Source: Clostridiales bacterium | GTDB lineage: Bacteria; Bacillota; Clostridia; Saccharofermentanales; Saccharofermentanaceae | Direction of reading: 5' to 3' | Length of the DNA: 64,000 bases | Assembly: GCA_017428545.1 (NCBI GenBank) | Contig: JAFRQR010000021.1 | Coordinates: forward strand, 1 to 64,000 | In this document: positions 30,637 through 57,618 of the stretch, piece by piece | How positions within the stretch are numbered: position 1 is the stretch's first letter | Layout of the letters: each line of letters begins with the position of its first letter | The notes under the pieces: model-generated | Seen by the model: the letters and a program-made list of their open reading frames with translations, nothing else | The model's database searches: none | What the model was told of the DNA's origin: nothing | Translations under genes and position numbers: made by a program

Positions 30637-31728
30637 TCAGGAAACAATGTTTGCCTGGCTTTGTTCCGCAACTACTGCAGGTGTGGTGCGGATCCAGTAG
30701 TTCTCGTTATAGATATTGTCCAGTTCGCTGAAATAGGTCTGCTCGTAGACACCGCCGTCAGCGAGGATCGTACGGCGCGACGGTTCGTTGTCCGTGTGGC
30801 AGACGACCAGGACCTTCGAGTGGCCGAGAAGTTTGGCATAAGGAAGCACCATCGCCAGCATCCTCTTACCATAGCCGCGACGACGTTCGGAAGGGCGTAC
30901 GGAGTACGAGATGTGGCCGCCGTGCTTACTCATGTAGTCGTTGAGCTCGTGCTTGATCTCGATCATGCCGACCGGAAGACCGTCAGACATACGGAAAGCA
31001 ACGAACGGGGTGCTCGGCATGTAGTAGGACGGCGCGGTCTTTCTGGAACCGAGCGTGTCGACAAAGGCGAACCATTCGGCGATATCGTCAAACGAAGCAA
31101 GAAGCGCAGATCCGATGATCTCCTCCTCGCCCCAGTTAAGATATTCATCACGGAAATCTTCCATCTCATCAGCGAAATCCGTAGAAGGAAGTGTCAGGAT
31201 CAGGGCGTCTTCCGGAACGAATGCGACGCACGTCATCGGGTCGGTGAAGTCGAATTCATAGACCTCGAAAGGCGCGCCCGGCACGTGTCCGACGACAAAA
31301 ATGGTATTTCTGTCCGGATAGTATTCGGCGCCGCACCAGATGAAGTCGGAGCCTGTCTTAAAAGCTTCGTCGGAATAGTAGCGGTGCTCGGTGAGAGTTG
31401 CCAGGTTAAATACGGAAAAACCGAAACGGTCACGTCGGAAAACGTAGTAAACGATGCCGTTATTGTGCTTGATCATCTCGCTCAATGCGTGCTCGTTGTC
31501 GAGGCAGTCATAACTTAAAACAAGGTCGTGATTCGGCGTGAAAAGCGAATAGCGGGCAGCCATTCTCGGTTCGCCGTCGAGCTCGCCTTCGTAGGTCTCA
31601 CAGAGGAGAAAATAGCCGTTGGCAAAACAGCCCTCTTCCTTCGTCCTTTTGTTCTCGGGACGGAAAAGGATCTCGCTTTGCTGCTTATACTGATTCGCAT
31701 ATTCAGGCGAAAATGCGACGTTCCTCAT
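30637..31728 (-). CDS. GNAT acetyltransferase fused to an N-terminal domain of unknown function
   Basis: 363 residues from the ATG at 31728; the upstream frame (to 31866) would give a non-conserved extension. The C-terminal ~140 residues are GNAT: VAFRMSDGLPVGMIEIKHEL, then YSVRPSERRRGYGKRMLAM (acetyl-CoA loop Rx2GxG) and VVCHTDNEPSRRTILADGGV. The first ~190 residues are beta-rich and Tyr/Asp-rich (YYVFRRDRFGFSVFNLATL, GSDFIWCGAEYYPDRNTIFV); they resemble WD-like fragments in Firmicutes but I cannot name the domain. The substrate is unknown. The gene is divergent from the zinc-ribbon pair. Confidence 0.8.
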   Translation of the reverse strand: MRNVAFSPEYANQYKQQSEILFRPENKRTKEEGCFANGYFLLCETYEGELDGEPRMAARYSLFTPNHDLVLSYDCLDNEHALSEMIKHNNGIVYYVFRRDRFGFSVFNLATLTEHRYYSDEAFKTGSDFIWCGAEYYPDRNTIFVVGHVPGAPFEVYEFDFTDPMTCVAFVPEDALILTLPSTDFADEMEDFRDEYLNWGEEEIIGSALLASFDDIAEWFAFVDTLGSRKTAPSYYMPSTPFVAFRMSDGLPVGMIEIKHELNDYMSKHGGHISYSVRPSERRRGYGKRMLAMVLPYAKLLGHSKVLVVCHTDNEPSRRTILADGGVYEQTYFSELDNIYNENYWIRTTPAVVAEQSQANIVS

Positions 31729-31851
31729 ATAATTCCTGCTCTCTTTTATGTCTGGTTCAAGTGCTTTTGCGTCTGCCGGAACAGGGGGCAAAAATGCGCC
31801 TGAAACCCCAGTTAAATATGAATATAAAAAGTGTAACACAATGCGAAATAA

Positions 31852-31880
31852 TTGACAATCTCGCAAACAAATTTTATATT
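31852..31880 (+). promoter_or_regulatory. Promoter for the zinc-ribbon scaffold gene
   Basis: TTGACA, 17-base spacer, TATATT, about 28 bases before the start at 31908, with GTAGGAGGGT as RBS. A strong consensus-type vegetative promoter. Confidence 0.8.
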
Positions 31881-31907
31881 ATAGAGTGATGTAGGAGGGT
31901 TCTTTAT

Positions 31908-34900
31908 ATGGAGATAGCATTTCACTGCCCCAATTGTTCGGCAGATCTGATATTCGATGAATCCAAAAGTTATACTTGCTGCTTCTGTCATACGGTATTG
32001 ACCGGAAAAGACGAAGTAACAGAGCTCGAAGGCGGTTACTATGTAGGTGACGCCTGGAATGAAAAAGTGTATCACGTATTCCACTGTGAGGATTGCGGTG
32101 GAGAGTTTATAGCAAAACCGGCAAACGCAAATATCGGCTGCCCGATCTGCGCGTCCACGTCTCTTAAGGACAAGGGCGGTATCGTCGGACCGATGCCGAG
32201 AAGAGCGATTCCGTTCTCACATACCAAGCAGCAGGCACAGGAGATGTTCCTGGATTATATCCGCAACAATTCCGCTGTCGGCAGAACTCTGGCAACCGAC
32301 GAGAACAAGGAACTTCTGCACAAAGCTTATGTTCCGATCTGGCTTTTTACATACGAAGTCATTGCACATGCAAAAGTCACCGCTTCGCTGAGAAATAAAG
32401 CTGCGGAGAGCAAGACACTTTTCGGTATCAACGGTACCGAAGCGATCGCCGAGTCTCTTACCGCGATCCGTTCTTCTTTCTCCCGTTTCCAGGCCAACCG
32501 CAAAGGCGCGGCAAAAGAGACAAATGACGGTACATCCGAGCATGTCACCGGTGGTGTCCTCTCCTGGCAGGGGATCCCGTTTGACGCATCCGGTGTTCTT
32601 CCGACCAGCGTCATCAACAACCTGCAGCCCTATGACCAGAGCAAGATGGTCCTTCTGAACGAGAAGGTCCTGATGGATACTCCGGTCCTGATCATGACCA
32701 AAGACCCGATCTCCTGCATGCAGGATTTCATGGAGCGTATCAAGAAATGGACACGTCAGATGATCATCGACGCCCATTCCGATTCTTACGACATTTCCTA
32801 TTTCCAGGACAAGACCGACTACCCGCTGGGTATCGGTGAACTGGTGCTTTTCCCGATCTGGTACATGAAGGGCGAGTACATGGGCAGAGAATATTTCTTT
32901 GCCATGAACGGCCAAAACGGTGAGATCGATGCCAACGTTCCGATGACCAAGGGAACCTCCAAGAGTGCCGGCATCACGTATCAGCAGTACTGGGACAAGT
33001 CCCGCTGCACAGCGCTTAACGACACGCACTTCGAATTTAATATCCACGACCCGAATATCGAGGTCCTCGATTACTCCTTCTTCGAAAAGCCGAAGGAGTC
33101 GAGAGTCACCCCGGAAGGCAGGATCGCGCCGAAGTCCTCTTCCGCCGCTCCGGCAAGCCTGGATGATGTATTCGAGAATGCCGCCGAGGCTCTTTCCGGT
33201 GGAAAAGCACCTGCTTCCGATAAGCCGGCGCAGAAGAAGAAGTTCTCCGAGATGGAAATGGAGATCGGATTCGGCAAGAAGAAGAAAGATCCGGAAAAGC
33301 CCTTGACCAAGGAAGAAGAGATGGAGCGCGAGCGCGAGATGATCGCAAGACTCCGTGCCGCCGCAAAAGAGGAACCGAGAGACCCGAATGGCGCCGCAAG
33401 TGTTCCTTCCTGGGCAAAGGCTGTTACGCCGCCGCCGTCCCAGACGACAGCCGCGCGTCCGACCGCCAGAACGAAGAAGGGCACGAGCGCTACAAGATCC
33501 AGCGTAGCCGCTTCTGCGAACAAGCCGATCTGGGAGAAGACCGAAGAAGACCTTCTCGCAGAAAAAGAGGCTTCCAGAAAGCCCACGATGTCCATGGCAG
33601 AACGCATGGCAAGAAAAGAAGAAGATACAACGGAGAACAAGCCGGCCCGTGGTTTCACCGGCGGTCTTGGTGCCATGAACCAGGATATGGAACTGGAAGA
33701 TCTGGACAAGATGCTTACTTCGGATCCCATGCCCCCGATGCATATGAAGGTTCCGGACAAGTACAAGACTCCTGCTGCTTCTGCTGAAGAAACAGCTTTC
33801 CGTGAGCAGATCGCCGCTCCGTCGCATCACGAAGAAGAAACACCGGAATCCTACGAGATCCCGATGCCGAAGGTCACTCCGAAGCCTTCCGCAAGAAAAG
33901 CACCTGTCAGAAGAAAGGTAGTCGAGCCGCAGCCGGAGCCGGTCGTTGAAGAGCCGGTGATCGAAGAGACGGCACCTGAAGAAGAGACCGAGATGATGGC
34001 GAACATCACCTTCTCCTTCAACAAGAAAAAGCCTGCCATGAGCGGTGAGGAAAAACCCGTTACCGAAACAGCTATCCCGAGACAGCCGGAGAAAGAACCG
34101 GAAAGGGCTCAGGGTATGCCGATCATGAACTCCGAATATGAATCCGGTTATCTTAACCGTACCGAGATCGAGCGCGAAGTATCCGAGGGTGGCGTCCGGG
34201 AGATCGTTCCGAATATCCCGAAGGCTTCCGAGAACTATGTCGGATCGGATGAGAATGACCGTCCGCTGTCTTCCCGTCCCGCAGCTCCTCTTGCCCGTAT
34301 GCGCGGTGATGTCCGTGTCGAGACGACAGACAGAAAAGACCTGGCTCCTGAGGATGATATTACGAACCGTCCTCTGGCCGAAAGACCGCCGGCCCCGCTG
34401 GCAAGAGCGACCGAATCTTCCGGCCCGACATTGGAATATCTGGCCGAGCATGAATTGGATGACGAGATCCACGCGATGCCTTCTATCGAAAGCAACGCCG
34501 GATTGAGATGGGGTGAGATGCCTGAAGCAAAGGGTACGCCGTCCTGGGCAAAACCGCAGGAGTCTGATGATTCCCCGTCTCCGTTCAGACCGAACCCGAG
34601 AGACCGTGGTAGAAGCCATATGTCCAGAGACGAACTTCGCGCGTCCGAAGAAGACGCTGTCAGAAAAGCATCCGCAAGCCTTGCAGCTCACAACGCCGCA
34701 GGCCCGAGAGCAAGAACTCTTGCCGACAGAAGAAGGATCGATGCCGAAGAAGCAGCACAAGAGCAGGAGAGAGCAAATTCTCCGTTCCGTCCGGCAAGAC
34801 CTGCCGCGGAGAGACCGGCTATCGAAAGACAGGCGACAGAAAGACCGATGGGCAGACCTGCCGGAAGACCTGCTCCGAGAGCAGCTGCCGAAGAACCGAA

Positions 34901-35900
34901 AAAACAGGTCCCGATCTGGGAGCGTGTCCCGGAGACAGACGGACCGATCCCTGCATGGGGTGCTTCCGCCGCATTTGTTGATGATGAAAGACCGCGTGGT
35001 TCTCTCATGAAGCCGAAGGGTCAGATCATTGATGTTGAAAAGCCGAGAGAAGGCACAGGCCTTTGGAAACCGGACGGATCCGTTAAGGAAGTCCTGCTTC
35101 CGGGCGGTGCAAGAGTCGGTTCCGCTGAAGAAGAGAAAGATAATGAGCGCGAACTTCCGGCACCGGAAGCCCGCGAGGTCGCTCCGACGAGACCTTCAAG
35201 ACCTCAGGTAGAGCGTCCTGCTCCGCCGAGAGGAGCCGCGATACCGTCTGCAAGACCGGTTTCCAGACCTGCGGTTGAAAGACCTGCAGCCAGACCTGCA
35301 GTAGAAAGACCTGCAGCCAGACCTTCGGTTGAAAGACCGGCAGCGGAAAGACCGATGGGCAGACCTTCCGCAAGACCTATGGGAAGACCCGGAAATGCCG
35401 TAATTGAGGAAGCCGCAGAGAACCGTTCTTCTGCGGTAACTGAAGATGAGAGCGCTCCGATCACTTTCTCCTCTGACCGTCCGCGTACATATGCACAGCG
35501 CCGTCAGATGGAAGAGGAAGAAAGAAGACGTGAGATCCAGAGTTCTTTTGTGAACCCGGAAAAACAGCGCGCTCCGATCCGCCGCCCGTCGCTCCGACCT
35601 GCGGATCTTCGTGCCGACCTTCCGGATGAGGATGAACCGGTCAATAAGACGTTTGAGTCTTCGCAGTTTGAGAATAAGCCGTCTGTAGTGGCTTCTCTGG
35701 ATATGCTTCCGGAGCCGCTCGGTGAAGAAAACATCCACCACCTGGCAAAAGATTCCTATACGCCGGCGCTTGCCCGCGGTACGGATGAGATCCAGGAAGA
35801 ACTGGCACAGGGTGAAAAGATCGCGAAGAAAGCGATGAGAGGCCTGCCGGATTATGATCCGGACGGACCGAGCCCGTTTAAGCCGAATAGAAACCGATAA
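31908..35900 (+). CDS. Zinc-ribbon protein with long disordered Arg/Pro/Glu-rich tail
   Basis: 1330 residues. The N-terminus holds two Cys4 zinc ribbons: FHCPNCS with TCCFC, and FHCEDCGG with GCPICAS. A folded region follows to about residue 415, shared with the paralog at 35977 (for example AYVPIWLFTYE against PVYVPFFFYDY). The remaining ~900 residues are low-complexity and probably disordered, with recurring short motifs: PIWEK/PIWER, PSWAK (twice), RPLxxRPxAPLAR (twice), SPFRPN/SPFRPA/SPFKPN, and ERPAARPAVERPAARPSVER. There is no membrane segment. The C-terminus GLPDYDPDGPSPFKPNRNR matches that of the paralog. The function is unknown; the architecture suggests a cytoplasmic scaffold. Confidence 0.85.
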   Translation: MEIAFHCPNCSADLIFDESKSYTCCFCHTVLTGKDEVTELEGGYYVGDAWNEKVYHVFHCEDCGGEFIAKPANANIGCPICASTSLKDKGGIVGPMPRRAIPFSHTKQQAQEMFLDYIRNNSAVGRTLATDENKELLHKAYVPIWLFTYEVIAHAKVTASLRNKAAESKTLFGINGTEAIAESLTAIRSSFSRFQANRKGAAKETNDGTSEHVTGGVLSWQGIPFDASGVLPTSVINNLQPYDQSKMVLLNEKVLMDTPVLIMTKDPISCMQDFMERIKKWTRQMIIDAHSDSYDISYFQDKTDYPLGIGELVLFPIWYMKGEYMGREYFFAMNGQNGEIDANVPMTKGTSKSAGITYQQYWDKSRCTALNDTHFEFNIHDPNIEVLDYSFFEKPKESRVTPEGRIAPKSSSAAPASLDDVFENAAEALSGGKAPASDKPAQKKKFSEMEMEIGFGKKKKDPEKPLTKEEEMEREREMIARLRAAAKEEPRDPNGAASVPSWAKAVTPPPSQTTAARPTARTKKGTSATRSSVAASANKPIWEKTEEDLLAEKEASRKPTMSMAERMARKEEDTTENKPARGFTGGLGAMNQDMELEDLDKMLTSDPMPPMHMKVPDKYKTPAASAEETAFREQIAAPSHHEEETPESYEIPMPKVTPKPSARKAPVRRKVVEPQPEPVVEEPVIEETAPEEETEMMANITFSFNKKKPAMSGEEKPVTETAIPRQPEKEPERAQGMPIMNSEYESGYLNRTEIEREVSEGGVREIVPNIPKASENYVGSDENDRPLSSRPAAPLARMRGDVRVETTDRKDLAPEDDITNRPLAERPPAPLARATESSGPTLEYLAEHELDDEIHAMPSIESNAGLRWGEMPEAKGTPSWAKPQESDDSPSPFRPNPRDRGRSHMSRDELRASEEDAVRKASASLAAHNAAGPRARTLADRRRIDAEEAAQEQERANSPFRPARPAAERPAIERQATERPMGRPAGRPAPRAAAEEPKKQVPIWERVPETDGPIPAWGASAAFVDDERPRGSLMKPKGQIIDVEKPREGTGLWKPDGSVKEVLLPGGARVGSAEEEKDNERELPAPEAREVAPTRPSRPQVERPAPPRGAAIPSARPVSRPAVERPAARPAVERPAARPSVERPAAERPMGRPSARPMGRPGNAVIEEAAENRSSAVTEDESAPITFSSDRPRTYAQRRQMEEEERRREIQSSFVNPEKQRAPIRRPSLRPADLRADLPDEDEPVNKTFESSQFENKPSVVASLDMLPEPLGEENIHHLAKDSYTPALARGTDEIQEELAQGEKIAKKAMRGLPDYDPDGPSPFKPNRNR

Positions 35901-35908
35901 GCAATTCA

Positions 35909-35956
35909 CACACCGGGAATTAAGCGTCAGAAATGGCGCTGTCCCGGTATGTTTTT
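35909..35956 (+). terminator. Terminator or attenuator between the paralogs
   Basis: CACACCGGGA and TCCCGGTATG form an outer stem (one mismatch) followed by TTTTT; an inner GCG/GCGC pair sits in the loop. It ends only about 20 bases before the next start, so it may attenuate rather than stop transcription. Confidence 0.55.
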
Positions 35957-35976
35957 ACCTTTTGTAAGGAGTAACC

Positions 35977-37536
35977 ATGGAAAAAGCCTACCTCTGCCCG
36001 ACATGCGGTGCATCCGTGATCCTCAACGGCGAGACAGACCCGGCATGCTGCTTTTGTAAAAGTGCTCTTTCCGAAGAAAACGAGATCGCACAGCCGGAAG
36101 GCGGCTTTTATGCCGCAGGACCTGTCAGTTCTGAAGTACGCCGCCTGACCTGCTACAAATGCGGTAAGAGCATGCTGTCTTCCCCAAGCGCGGATCTGAA
36201 AACGCCGAGATGCCTTTGCTGCGGATCTGACGATCTGACAGTCACCTCGGAAAAAGTGATGCTTCCTTCCAAACTCACGGTCGTTCCTTTTTCGTGCGAC
36301 AGAAAAGAGGCGGAAGAAGAGTATCTGAAAGCCGTGAAGAAGGAAAAGATCAAGTTCCATTCATTTTCTTCGAAAGAATACATCGACGCGATCACACCGG
36401 TGTACGTCCCGTTTTTCTTTTACGATTACCACGCATTCGGATCCGCGGTCTTAAGTGTCGTTCCCTATGTCAAACAGCCGAGAAATGTCACGGAAAAGAT
36501 CCTCGGCGTCATGCTTTTAAACGATTTCACGTTGGAAAGAAGATCCAACGTCGCTACCCCCTATCCGAAGACATTCAGCGCCGAAATGGCCTGGAGATCA
36601 CTTCCGATGTCGGCATCATCCGCGATCGACCAGAAGCGTATGGACGCGGTCTCACCATTTCTTAAAGCCGGTGTCGGCACCGACGAAAGAGAGATCGGTG
36701 AGATCAAGCATGCCATGATCCTGGATATCGACCGCTCCGCGAAGGATATTGAAGATGAGTTTAAGGCGCGTATCAAAGACTTCGTCAAAGAGTGTATCAT
36801 TACGGAAAACCTCGAAAATTTCTCCATTACTTCGTTCATCGACAACACAGTCTATGATCCGTCTCTCGGCCAGCTGATCTATGTTCCGATGTGGATATTG
36901 AAGGTCAGAAAGAAGGACAGCTGTCTGACGTGGTGCATGAACGCGATCTCCGGAAAAGCATCTGACATCTCCCGTGATGTGCTCGATGAAAAAGAGACCG
37001 CGAAAGAAGAAAAGACCGACTCACTTTCTGCGATCAGTAAAAAACGCATCAAATCGATCACACTTGATGATCTGGGCGGCGCCGAAAAACCCGTTAACTA
37101 CAGAACATTCATGATCGATATCGTGGCGTCTGCGATCACTTCCGAAATGGCGCTGAATGAGATGTCCGCGGACAAGAGTCTTCTGCAGCTCGAAAGGAAT
37201 GCCCGACGAAAAACGACACATATCAATGTTCCGGTGGCAGATGCTTTTCAGCCGGAAGCGGAAAAAGCTGTTGCCGAGAGCAAGAAACAGCCGATCCCGA
37301 GCGCTCCCGTACCGCTTCCGTCAAAGCATTCAGAGCTGTATCTCATGAAAGAAGAAGCCAGAAACCGTTCCCTGGGAAGAGGACAGAGGCTTCCGGAAAA
37401 GCCGCTTGACAGAAGAGTCGGAAATGAAGAAGAGTTTAAGGTTGATGACACACCATCCGGCATCGCCGTTGAATTCGGACTTTCGGATCTTCCGGAGTAC
37501 GATCCGGCCGGACCGAACCCTTTCAAAAAAGTCTGA
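35977..37536 (+). CDS. Zinc-ribbon protein, short paralog of the upstream gene
   Basis: 519 residues. The two zinc ribbons are YLCPTCGA with ACCFC, and LTCYKCGKS with CLCCGSDDL. The spacing and the next 300 residues parallel the upstream protein (MLPSKLTVVPFSCDRKEAEE against MPRRAIPFSHTKQQAQEMF; LGQLIYVPMWILKVR against LGIGELVLFPIWYMKGE). The tail is short (~150 residues) and ends SDLPEYDPAGPNPFKKV, the same YDPxGPxPFK motif. A tandem duplication with divergent tail length is the simplest reading. The pair probably acts together; the function is unknown. Confidence 0.83.
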   Translation: MEKAYLCPTCGASVILNGETDPACCFCKSALSEENEIAQPEGGFYAAGPVSSEVRRLTCYKCGKSMLSSPSADLKTPRCLCCGSDDLTVTSEKVMLPSKLTVVPFSCDRKEAEEEYLKAVKKEKIKFHSFSSKEYIDAITPVYVPFFFYDYHAFGSAVLSVVPYVKQPRNVTEKILGVMLLNDFTLERRSNVATPYPKTFSAEMAWRSLPMSASSAIDQKRMDAVSPFLKAGVGTDEREIGEIKHAMILDIDRSAKDIEDEFKARIKDFVKECIITENLENFSITSFIDNTVYDPSLGQLIYVPMWILKVRKKDSCLTWCMNAISGKASDISRDVLDEKETAKEEKTDSLSAISKKRIKSITLDDLGGAEKPVNYRTFMIDIVASAITSEMALNEMSADKSLLQLERNARRKTTHINVPVADAFQPEAEKAVAESKKQPIPSAPVPLPSKHSELYLMKEEARNRSLGRGQRLPEKPLDRRVGNEEEFKVDDTPSGIAVEFGLSDLPEYDPAGPNPFKKV

Positions 37537-55060: not shown

Positions 55061-56101
55061 ATGGAATTTCTTGTAAATTGGTTTGAAGCATTAAATCTGT
55101 CTGAGCAGATCTTCGCGTGCATCGCGGTCGTCTTCACCGTTCTTTTGATCTTCCAGTTTATTCTCCTGCTGATCGGAGCAGCGTCTCATGCAGCAGGCGA
55201 TCTGAACGGCCACGATATGGGCGGACATGGTCACGATTTCGGCCACGGACACGATATGGATGTCGGGCACGACGGTTCGGTCGGACACGATTTCGGCCAC
55301 GGCCACGGAGATTTCGGACATGATGTCGGTCATGATTTCGGACACGGACATGGCGACTTCGGACACAGCTTCGGTCATGGTGACGTCGGAGGGATCCACG
55401 GAGATGTCGGAACAGATGTGGACGGATCCATTCACGGAGATCTCGCAGGCGCAGACGGACACGGTTTCGATTACGATCACGATCTGGACACCGATACACA
55501 TGTCGGACAGATCATCCACGATTTCGGTCAGGTGCAGGGAAGCGTCGTTGTAGATGTACATAGTGGTGATGTCTACCTCGCAGACGCCGCACCGCACGAT
55601 CTGATGGTTCGAGGGCCGGATGTAGGTATCCCGGATCAGGATCTGCCGGACGGAAGGACGTACGTCGACCGCGCAGACAAACTGCACGGTTCCGGATTCA
55701 GACTCTTCTCGATGCAGGGCATCATCGCCTTCTTCAGCCTCTTCGGCTGGACGGGCCTGATCTTCATGAAAGCGGGAATGCCGGTCTGGGGCGCAGCGCT
55801 ACTTGCCTTTGTCTGCGGATTTGTCGGAATGTTCTTGATGGCACTTGCTCTATGGGGTATGCTAAAAGCACAGTCTGACGGAACAATGGATATCAGAAAT
55901 GCGCTCGGCATGGACGGTGAAGTTTATATCCCGATCCCCGGTAAGCGTGAAATGCCCGGAAAAGTCATCGTAAAGGTCCAGGACCAGCTGTCGGAATTCG
56001 ACGCGGTCACGGACGAAGAAGAAAAGCTTGGTACCGGTACTCAGATAACGGTCATCGGCATCACAAAGGGTACAACACTGATTGTGACCAAACATAATTA
56101 A
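55061..56101 (+). CDS. NfeD-like membrane protein with a His/Asp/Gly-rich insert
   Basis: 346 residues. Helix 1 at ~15-40 is followed by a ~95-residue stretch built from GHDFGHGHG-type repeats (residues ~49-150, more than 25 His) then a beta-like region. Two or three helices follow (~218-268: GIIAFFSLFGWTGLIF, GAALLAFVCGFVGMFLMALA), and a C-terminal OB-fold of NfeD type (DGEVYIPIPGKREMPGKVIV, GTGTQITVIGITKGTTLIV). NfeD proteins pair with flotillins, whose gene follows. The His-rich insert is unlike ordinary YuaF/NfeD proteins and could bind Zn, Ni or Cu; it would lie between helix 1 and 2, probably outside. Confidence 0.83.
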   Translation: MEFLVNWFEALNLSEQIFACIAVVFTVLLIFQFILLLIGAASHAAGDLNGHDMGGHGHDFGHGHDMDVGHDGSVGHDFGHGHGDFGHDVGHDFGHGHGDFGHSFGHGDVGGIHGDVGTDVDGSIHGDLAGADGHGFDYDHDLDTDTHVGQIIHDFGQVQGSVVVDVHSGDVYLADAAPHDLMVRGPDVGIPDQDLPDGRTYVDRADKLHGSGFRLFSMQGIIAFFSLFGWTGLIFMKAGMPVWGAALLAFVCGFVGMFLMALALWGMLKAQSDGTMDIRNALGMDGEVYIPIPGKREMPGKVIVKVQDQLSEFDAVTDEEEKLGTGTQITVIGITKGTTLIVTKHN

Positions 56102-56124: not shown

Positions 56125-57618
56125 ATGCCATTTGAGATTATTTGCCTTTTAGCTGTAGTTGCTCTGCTGGTATTCACACTGTTTTTGGTTTTCTTGTCGA
56201 GGTACAGAAAATGTCCGTCTGACCGCATCATGGTCATCTACGGTAAAGTCGGCAAGAACTCGGACGGATCTGCCCGCTCATCTAAGTGTATTCACGGTGG
56301 TGCTGCGTTTGTTTGGCCGATCATTCAGTCCTATCAATACCTTGACCTGACACCGATCTCCATTGCGGTCGACCTTCGTTCCGCACTGTCCCGTCAGAAC
56401 ATCCGTATTGACGTACCGTCTATCTTTACAGTCGGTATCTCCACAGAACAGGGTGTCATGCAGAACGCCGCCGAGCGTCTTCTCGGCCTGAAGCTTTCTG
56501 AGATCCAGGAACTCGCGAAGGACATCATCTTCGGTCAGCTCCGTCTGGTCATCGCTACGATGGATATCGAGGAGATCAACACCGACCGTGATAAGTTCCT
56601 CGAGGCTGTATCCAGAAACGTGGAGACAGAACTTAAGAAGATCGGTCTTCGTCTGATCAACGTAAACGTAACGGATATTTCCGATGAGTCCGGCTACATC
56701 AGTGCTCTTGGTAAAGAGGCTGCTGCTAAGGCTATCAACGACGCAAAGAAGAACGTTGCCGAGAAGGAAAGAGACGGTTCCATCGGTGAGGCTCTTGCCC
56801 AGAAGGATCAGAGAATCCAGGTCGCATCTGCGAACTCCATGGCTATCCGCGGTGAGAACGATGCGAAGATCGAAGTTGCTAATTCCGAGGCTGTACGCCG
56901 TGAGAAAGCCGCTGAGGCGATGAGACTTGCGATCGCAGCTGAGAAGGTCCAGGCCGCTAAGGCATTGGAAGAAGCGTACGCTGCTGAAAAAGAAGCTGAG
57001 CTTTCCCGTTCCGCTCGTGAAAAAGCAACCCTCGAAGCCGACGTTATCGTTAAGGCTGAGATCAGTAAGAGAGAGATCGAGCTCGCTGCCGAGGCAGAAG
57101 CTGAGAAGATCAGAAGACAGGCAGCCGGTGAAGCTGACGCTATCTACGCAAAGATGGAAGCTCAGGCTCGTGGTATGCAGGAGATCCTGCAGAAGCAGGC
57201 TGCAGGTTTCGAGAAGATCGTTGCAGCTGCCGGCGGAGACGCCAAGAATGCTATGATGCTCATGCTTGCCGATAAGATGGAAGACCTCATGAAGATCCAG
57301 GTAGAAGCGATCCGCGACCTGAAGATCGACAAGGTAACTGTTTGGGACAGTGGCAACGGCACAGGCGCCGACGGCAAAAGCTCTACCGCAAACTTCATCT
57401 CGGGCCTTATGAAGAGTGTCCCGCCGATGAACGAGATCTTCGAGATGGCCGGCATGAATCTGCCGGAGTTCCTCGGCAAGAAGATGGACAAGCCGGAAGG
57501 CGAAGAAGCTGCTTCTGCTGAGACCGGTGAATCCGCAAAGGTCGTCTCCGGAACAGACGCAACCGCTTATACAGCAGCGGCTGCTGAAACAGAAACTGCG
57601 GAAGACGTACAGAGCTGA
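56125..57618 (+). CDS. floT: Flotillin-family SPFH protein
   Basis: 497 residues. N-terminal hairpin membrane segment (residues ~4-25) then the SPFH domain (RKCPSDRIMVIYGKVG, PIIQSYQYLDLTPISIAVDL) and a long Ala/Glu-rich coiled coil (~210-385: EAEAEKIRRQAAGEADAIYA), the flotillin repeat region. The last ~60 residues are Ala/Thr/Glu-rich and likely disordered. Flotillins scaffold functional membrane microdomains and protect against envelope stress. RBS AGGAGG precedes the ATG. It forms the standard NfeD-flotillin pair with the gene upstream. Confidence 0.94.
   Translation: MPFEIICLLAVVALLVFTLFLVFLSRYRKCPSDRIMVIYGKVGKNSDGSARSSKCIHGGAAFVWPIIQSYQYLDLTPISIAVDLRSALSRQNIRIDVPSIFTVGISTEQGVMQNAAERLLGLKLSEIQELAKDIIFGQLRLVIATMDIEEINTDRDKFLEAVSRNVETELKKIGLRLINVNVTDISDESGYISALGKEAAAKAINDAKKNVAEKERDGSIGEALAQKDQRIQVASANSMAIRGENDAKIEVANSEAVRREKAAEAMRLAIAAEKVQAAKALEEAYAAEKEAELSRSAREKATLEADVIVKAEISKREIELAAEAEAEKIRRQAAGEADAIYAKMEAQARGMQEILQKQAAGFEKIVAAAGGDAKNAMMLMLADKMEDLMKIQVEAIRDLKIDKVTVWDSGNGTGADGKSSTANFISGLMKSVPPMNEIFEMAGMNLPEFLGKKMDKPEGEEAASAETGESAKVVSGTDATAYTAAAAETETAEDVQS

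Follow-up and report, generated by a model that had tools for sequence, protein, structure and literature searches.

The 64,000-nucleotide stretch of DNA analyzed here, which we refer to as the window, comprises positions 1 to 64,000 of contig JAFRQR010000021.1 from a Clostridiales bacterium of the Saccharofermentanaceae (assembly GCA_017428545.1), and it carries a pair of genes, hereafter the long and the short gene, that lie head to tail on the forward strand with a spacing of 76 bp (Table 1). An earlier note, made from the letters of the window, had described their products as a paralogous zinc-ribbon pair, and this description holds: the folded cores of the two proteins are ~24% identical, and the comparison of the long-core profile with the short-core profile gave E=1e-41. 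In a search of 41 genomes the long protein was detected in all 23 genomes of this genus, complete long orthologs being 1300 to 1446 residues in length, and in the genus loci examined the long and short genes are encoded side by side as a syntenic pair. The folded core itself is already known from the YdjG family; what is new is this branch, in which both proteins have lost the membrane anchor, a long tail is found in one genus only, and a C-terminal tag is shared.

Table 1. Features of the gene pair, with positions in the window
Feature	Position	Strand	Remarks
Promoter-like site TTGACA-17-TATATT	31852-31880	+	Upstream of the long gene; 11/12 consensus matches
Shine-Dalgarno sequence AGGAGGG	31893-31899	+	Before the long gene
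Long gene	31908-35900	+	1330 amino acids (aa); two zinc ribbons, YdjG-type core and ~930-aa disordered tail
Long, zinc ribbon 1	31926-31988	+	C7, C10, C24, C27
Long, zinc ribbon 2	32085-32150	+	C60, C63, C78, C81
Long, YdjG-type folded core	32199-33002	+	aa ~98-365; no transmembrane helix
Long, disordered tail	33105-35897	+	aa 400-1330; conserved islands between variable linkers
PxW[AE][KR] motif 1 (PSWAK)	33405-33419	+	20/20 orthologs
PxW[AE][KR] motif 2 (PIWEK)	33525-33539	+	20/20 orthologs
RPLxxRPxAPLAR copy 1	34260-34298	+	1-2 copies per ortholog
RPLxxRPxAPLAR copy 2	34368-34406	+	1-2 copies per ortholog; conserved island
PxW[AE][KR] motif 3 (PSWAK)	34539-34553	+	19/20 orthologs
PxW[AE][KR] motif 4 (PIWER)	34911-34925	+	20/20 orthologs
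C-terminal tag of long, GLPDYDPDGPSPFKP	35841-35885	+	Tag core kept in all full-length long orthologs
Intergenic RNA hairpin, then T run	35909-35958	+	Terminator- or attenuator-like; -23.8 kcal/mol, z -3.7
Short gene	35977-37536	+	519 aa; two zinc ribbons, YdjG-type core and ~185-aa tail
C-terminal tag of short, DLPEYDPAGPNPFK	37486-37527	+	DPxGPxPF present in each of the 20 short proteins examined

Both proteins begin with two Cys4 ribbons, just as the earlier note had read them. In the short protein the ribbon cysteines occupy positions 7/10/24/27 and 59/62/79/82, and in an alignment of 51 family sequences, including two of Bacillus YdjG, all eight cysteines (CxxC...CxxC, twice) are invariant. 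The Bacillus ydjG gene was found in B. spizizenii and B. tequilensis by means of a published ydjG primer, and is located downstream of pspA in these species. Aligned by hhalign with B. spizizenii YdjG, the profiles of the long core, the short core and the ordinary relatives gave E=1.5e-26 (304 columns), E=8.5e-19 (206 columns) and E=2e-69 (325 columns), respectively. In related genomes of the order, an ordinary relative of ~360 residues is clustered with SPFH (PF13421) and TPM (PF04536) genes, which is the gene content of Bacillus pspA-ydjGHI. The profile matches, together with these clusters, therefore place the core of both proteins in the YdjG family, and this assignment by homology is well supported. 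The earlier note knew of no described system of this form and had held that a core from a well-described family would count against its reading; for the core this is partly the case, given its homology to Bacillus YdjG by profile comparison, while the statement still stands for the soluble, tailed branch.

The Pfam and NCBIfam models gave no usable match to either protein, a sequence search of the PDB with the pair returned no relative, and a fold search of the PDB with the predicted core yielded nothing at E<=0.001, and hence no solved fold analogue. The AlphaFold model of the long core mostly has a predicted local distance difference test (pLDDT) score of ~80-94, with a loop at residues 166-206 below 50 and a mean of 74 when the flexible end is included. 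Across 20 aligned orthologs, the identity of the long core to that of the window protein averages 81%. A phage or defence origin was considered and dropped, since PHROGs and PADLOC gave only weak zinc-ribbon matches; the short protein had no matching phage record.

Proteins of the YdjG family consist of two zinc ribbons, a YpeB/NTF2-like domain and a transmembrane (TM) segment (PMC11237479). By hydropathy, this C-terminal TM segment was found in neither the long nor the short protein at the position that it occupies in family members. The maximum 19-residue hydropathy was 0.89 for the long and 1.18 for the short protein of the window; the long orthologs reached 0.8-1.4, with no TM-like segment, and the short orthologs 1.0-1.5, with essentially none, the one value of 1.69 falling inside the core. 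In contrast, ordinary members of the family and the sister-genus proteins gave TM-like values of 1.85-3.3, and Bacillus YdjG 1.56. The hydropathy profiles are thus in agreement with the soluble protein that the earlier note had envisaged, and we infer that both proteins are probably cytoplasmic descendants of a YdjG-family protein from which the anchor was lost.

Solubility by hydropathy would also suit a nucleic-acid-binding regulator, in which TFIIB-like ribbons bind DNA or RNA and the tail acts as an activation or recruitment region. Indeed, ordinary members of the family match the TFIIB ribbon model PF08271, and a review has proposed DNA binding for YdjG on the basis of its likeness to the TFIIB ribbon (PMC9239133). 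However, neither the long nor the short protein matches PF08271, even at E<=1, and most members of the family are membrane-anchored, some of them with SPFH and TPM neighbours. Furthermore, the long tail is near charge-neutral rather than basic, with a net charge of 0.02 per residue, and we regard a regulator of this kind as distinctly unlikely.

The long disordered tail with conserved, repeated linear motifs that the earlier note had recognized was recovered both in the composition of the protein and in the alignment of the 20 orthologs. Every 60-residue block of the tail has a disordered composition, cysteine is absent, and 69% of the residues are disorder-promoting. Its identity to the window protein averages 52%, with many short islands well above this average, and its length is held at ~900-1046 residues in every complete long ortholog. 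When the window was compared with four relatives, the ratio of nonsynonymous to synonymous substitution rates (dN/dS) was 0.04-0.10 for the long core and 0.15-0.22 for the long tail, and this low ratio identifies the tail as coding sequence under purifying selection. We rejected the possibility that the long gene is a frame artefact, because orthologs keep the frame open and dN/dS is low; an open reading frame (ORF) of 847 aa on the opposite strand (32217-34760) was taken to be a shadow of the long gene, and some relatives have shifted shadows. Among 115 genomes of the taxonomic family the tail was found in 23, all of them from this genus, and the tail query returned only the long orthologs and no second protein with the same islands. 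In 391 genomes of the class, with few candidates scored per genome, no other open frame of more than ~540 residues was seen among the matches listed. The short protein has a tail without tryptophan that nevertheless carries conserved islands of its own.

Within the long tail, the motifs differ in how well they are kept. The earlier note had listed PIWE[KR] and PSWAK as separate motifs; their conservation was confirmed (in 20, 20, 19 and 20 of the 20 orthologs, respectively, for the four copies), but they are better described as one motif, P-x-W-[AE]-[KR], whose copies stand at the same aligned places across the orthologs, compared to an expectation of 0.03 per shuffled tail. The RPLxxRPxAPLAR element was likewise upheld, being present in each ortholog, and an RPRTxAQRRQMEEEERR segment forms a further conserved island. 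SPF[RK]P and ERPAARP, on the other hand, are enriched over shuffles in the window species, as had been noted, but their counts vary widely between orthologs and fall to zero in some. Because of this variability, and because they lie mostly in fast-evolving low-complexity sequence, they are poor motif candidates. It could be argued from such regions that the tail is mostly a neutral low-complexity expansion and that the core alone matters, since residues ~1070-1185 and the ERPAARP stretch evolve fast and are built of RP/ERP repeats. The constant length of the tail, its dN/dS and the many islands conserved in a fixed order speak against this explanation, which is already disfavoured and which we consider highly improbable.

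The C-terminal tag links the two proteins to each other and to their relatives. Both window proteins terminate in YDPxGPxPFK, as the earlier note had pointed out, and the tag consensus is LPxYDPxGPxPF[KR]. The search for further DPxGPxPFK endings that the note had proposed was carried out with a YDPxGPxPFK DNA pattern, and in the 2.9-Mb genome this matched only these two genes, with 0 control matches. The note had also named absence of the tag from orthologs as grounds for doubt, and the tag is clearly conserved in them. DPxGPxPF is also the C-terminus of a single anchored YdjG-like protein in the sister genera g14 and g15 (loci L132, L133 and L135). In the tree these tag-bearing anchored proteins stand closest to the long and short groups, and the remaining 18 sequences, Bacillus YdjG among them, group apart with 100/99 support. 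Since anchored YdjG-like proteins of two sister genera carry the tag, it predates the duplication and the loss of the anchor. The simplest history is thus one in which an anchored, tagged ancestor was duplicated, both copies lost the anchor, and the long tail then arose in this genus only.

The tagged YdjG-like gene of genus g15 seems to be damaged or split, possibly due to assembly error: in one locus (L135, 5833-7417) it is spread over two overlapping frames, and in another (L136, 6600-7520) all that is left is the 3′ part, preceded by a start-like remnant. In genomes of genus g2, which belongs to the same taxonomic family, the tag was absent except for one isolated pattern match outside any ORF of >=100 residues. 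The anchored YdjG-like paralogs of g2 (L178-L181) are 490-530 aa long and carry soluble C-terminal tails with other conserved endings, such as ATEFxKQGxGR, and tails on the YdjG family may therefore have arisen more than once.

The promoter-like site that precedes the long gene, including TAATTGACAAT, TTTATATTATA and TAGGAGGG, shows almost no variation among 18 loci of the genus. Examined from its sequence for control by the stress sigma factor SigW, the site is sigma-70-like, and it probably acts as a promoter. Conservation of positions 31849-31899 in the 18 genomes exceeds what a plain promoter needs, and the region is also upstream of a divergent gene. Between the long and short genes, the intergenic hairpin retains its stem in the 8 loci that were aligned, where 4 pairs show two-sided changes. 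In 9 of 18 other loci a gap of 13-38 nt takes its place; overall, the hairpin is present in about half of the genus loci. The occurrence of the hairpin in some loci and of a short gap in others suggests that both genes may be transcribed together, and that expression of the short gene may be attenuated in some species.

The surroundings of the pair are syntenic across the genus, with a divergent GNAT-domain gene upstream and GH1, glycosyltransferase and GGDEF/EAL genes downstream. The divergent gene (30637-31866, reverse strand) encodes a C-terminal GNAT acetyltransferase domain and adjoins the pair in all of the 21 loci inspected for it; the gene and the pair may be functionally linked. An SPFH/Band 7 protein (PF01145) is encoded at 56125-57618 on the forward strand, 19 kb downstream of the pair, and its gene adjoins an unassigned gene at 55061-56101.

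In Bacillus, both YdjG and YdjH are required for PspA and YdjI, an SPFH protein, to localize to membrane foci (PMC8581546), and members of the YdjG family are described as working together with PspA and with one protein each of the SPFH and TPM types (PMC11237479, PMC8581546). The genome of the window has at least six ordinary YdjG-like relatives of ~350-420 residues that end in a TM region, two of which (L057 and L058) are each followed by a TPM gene. It also has two YdjI-type SPFH genes, both with C-terminal ribbons, one copy beginning MGLIKA; the loci of these relatives and SPFH genes are L056-L061, L182 and L183. YdjI-type SPFH (PF13421) was above the cut-off in 23 of 23 genus genomes. PspA (PF04012) had no match in this genome or in the genus, and was above the cut-off in 3 of 188 genomes of the order. 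The genus has thus retained YdjG, TPM and SPFH proteins in the absence of PspA, and it is most likely this set with which the soluble pair works. We do not claim that the pair belongs to the PspA-YdjGHI system, because a TM segment, the operon context and PspA were each looked for and were not found.

These findings lead us to a tentative reading, held with somewhat less than even confidence, in which the long and short proteins would be cytosolic adaptors derived from YdjG, with partners and function that we infer. The zinc-ribbon core would dock on a sub-membrane assembly made up of the remaining YdjG paralogs and their TPM (YdjH-like) neighbours, of YdjI-type SPFH proteins, or of both, while the tails would serve as multivalent arms that recruit clients, with each W motif and APLAR element binding a putative repeated client or partner. 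The shared tag could serve to dock a common partner or the paralogous core, with the long protein acting as a scaffold and the short one as a tag-bearing partner of low valency or a regulator, and both would be made constitutively from one promoter. The multivalent scaffold with a docking tag that the earlier note had proposed is plausible, and the conservation data improve its standing. Several observations weigh against an adaptor of the SPFH/TPM assembly: across the genus loci no SPFH or TPM gene is in an operon with the pair, whose neighbours are of the kinds listed above; the genus lacks PspA, which is the client of the YdjGHI module that has been studied best; and AlphaFold did not dock the tag of the short protein confidently on its own core, the tag having a pLDDT of ~50.

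Some of the same evidence would fit a cytoplasmic hub or condensate scaffold of general use, with no tie to membrane stress, in which the YdjG core is an oligomerisation module only and the tail gathers enzymes or division and polarity factors. Neither protein is membrane-anchored, four conserved W motifs and other islands are spaced along a disordered chain, the promoter is invariant and housekeeping-looking, and no SPFH or TPM genes stand beside the pair. However, the tag is older than the loss of the anchor and is found on membrane proteins of the sister genera, which points to a membrane-linked partner, and YdjI-type SPFH is retained throughout the genus; such a hub is possible, if on the unlikely side. 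A bolder form of the adaptor proposal, which we think unlikely as a whole, is that in this PspA-less genus a YdjG-like protein, once duplicated, moved from the membrane to the cytoplasm, where it serves as a constitutive, multivalent scaffold replacing PspA as the organiser of the SPFH/TPM platform, with the PxW[AE][KR] motifs and the tag as its docking codes.

The YdjG family is widespread, 157 of the 391 class genomes sampled giving a strong match, yet its molecular role is hardly known. The present branch separates a soluble core from the anchor and offers two conserved candidate docking codes, so that it could be used to capture the partners of the family directly. Furthermore, that the YdjG/SPFH/TPM set can persist without PspA narrows what PspA is needed for. 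A disordered bacterial tail of 900 residues whose length and motif order are held across a genus is also uncommon.

Among disordered bacterial scaffolds, PopZ and PodJ may provide a working analogy, that of an oligomerising fold with a disordered arm bearing linear motifs, although to our knowledge no sequence relation to the pair is to be expected. Bacillus YdjG shares with the pair the two N-terminal Cys4 ribbons with all eight cysteines and a homologous middle domain. Unlike Bacillus YdjG, the pair has no TM helix, has C-terminal tails of ~930 and ~185 residues and the DPxGPxPF tag, and lacks PspA, SPFH and TPM neighbours, in a genus without PspA. The ordinary anchored paralogs of the same genome, such as those at L057 and L058, have the same ribbons and core but differ in having a C-terminal TM region, no tail or tag, and a TPM gene downstream. 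Finally, the anchored tagged proteins of g14 and g15 are encoded by a single-copy gene close to alaS and, unlike the pair, have a membrane-spanning region and a short tail, yet they have the same core and the same DPxGPxPF C-terminus.

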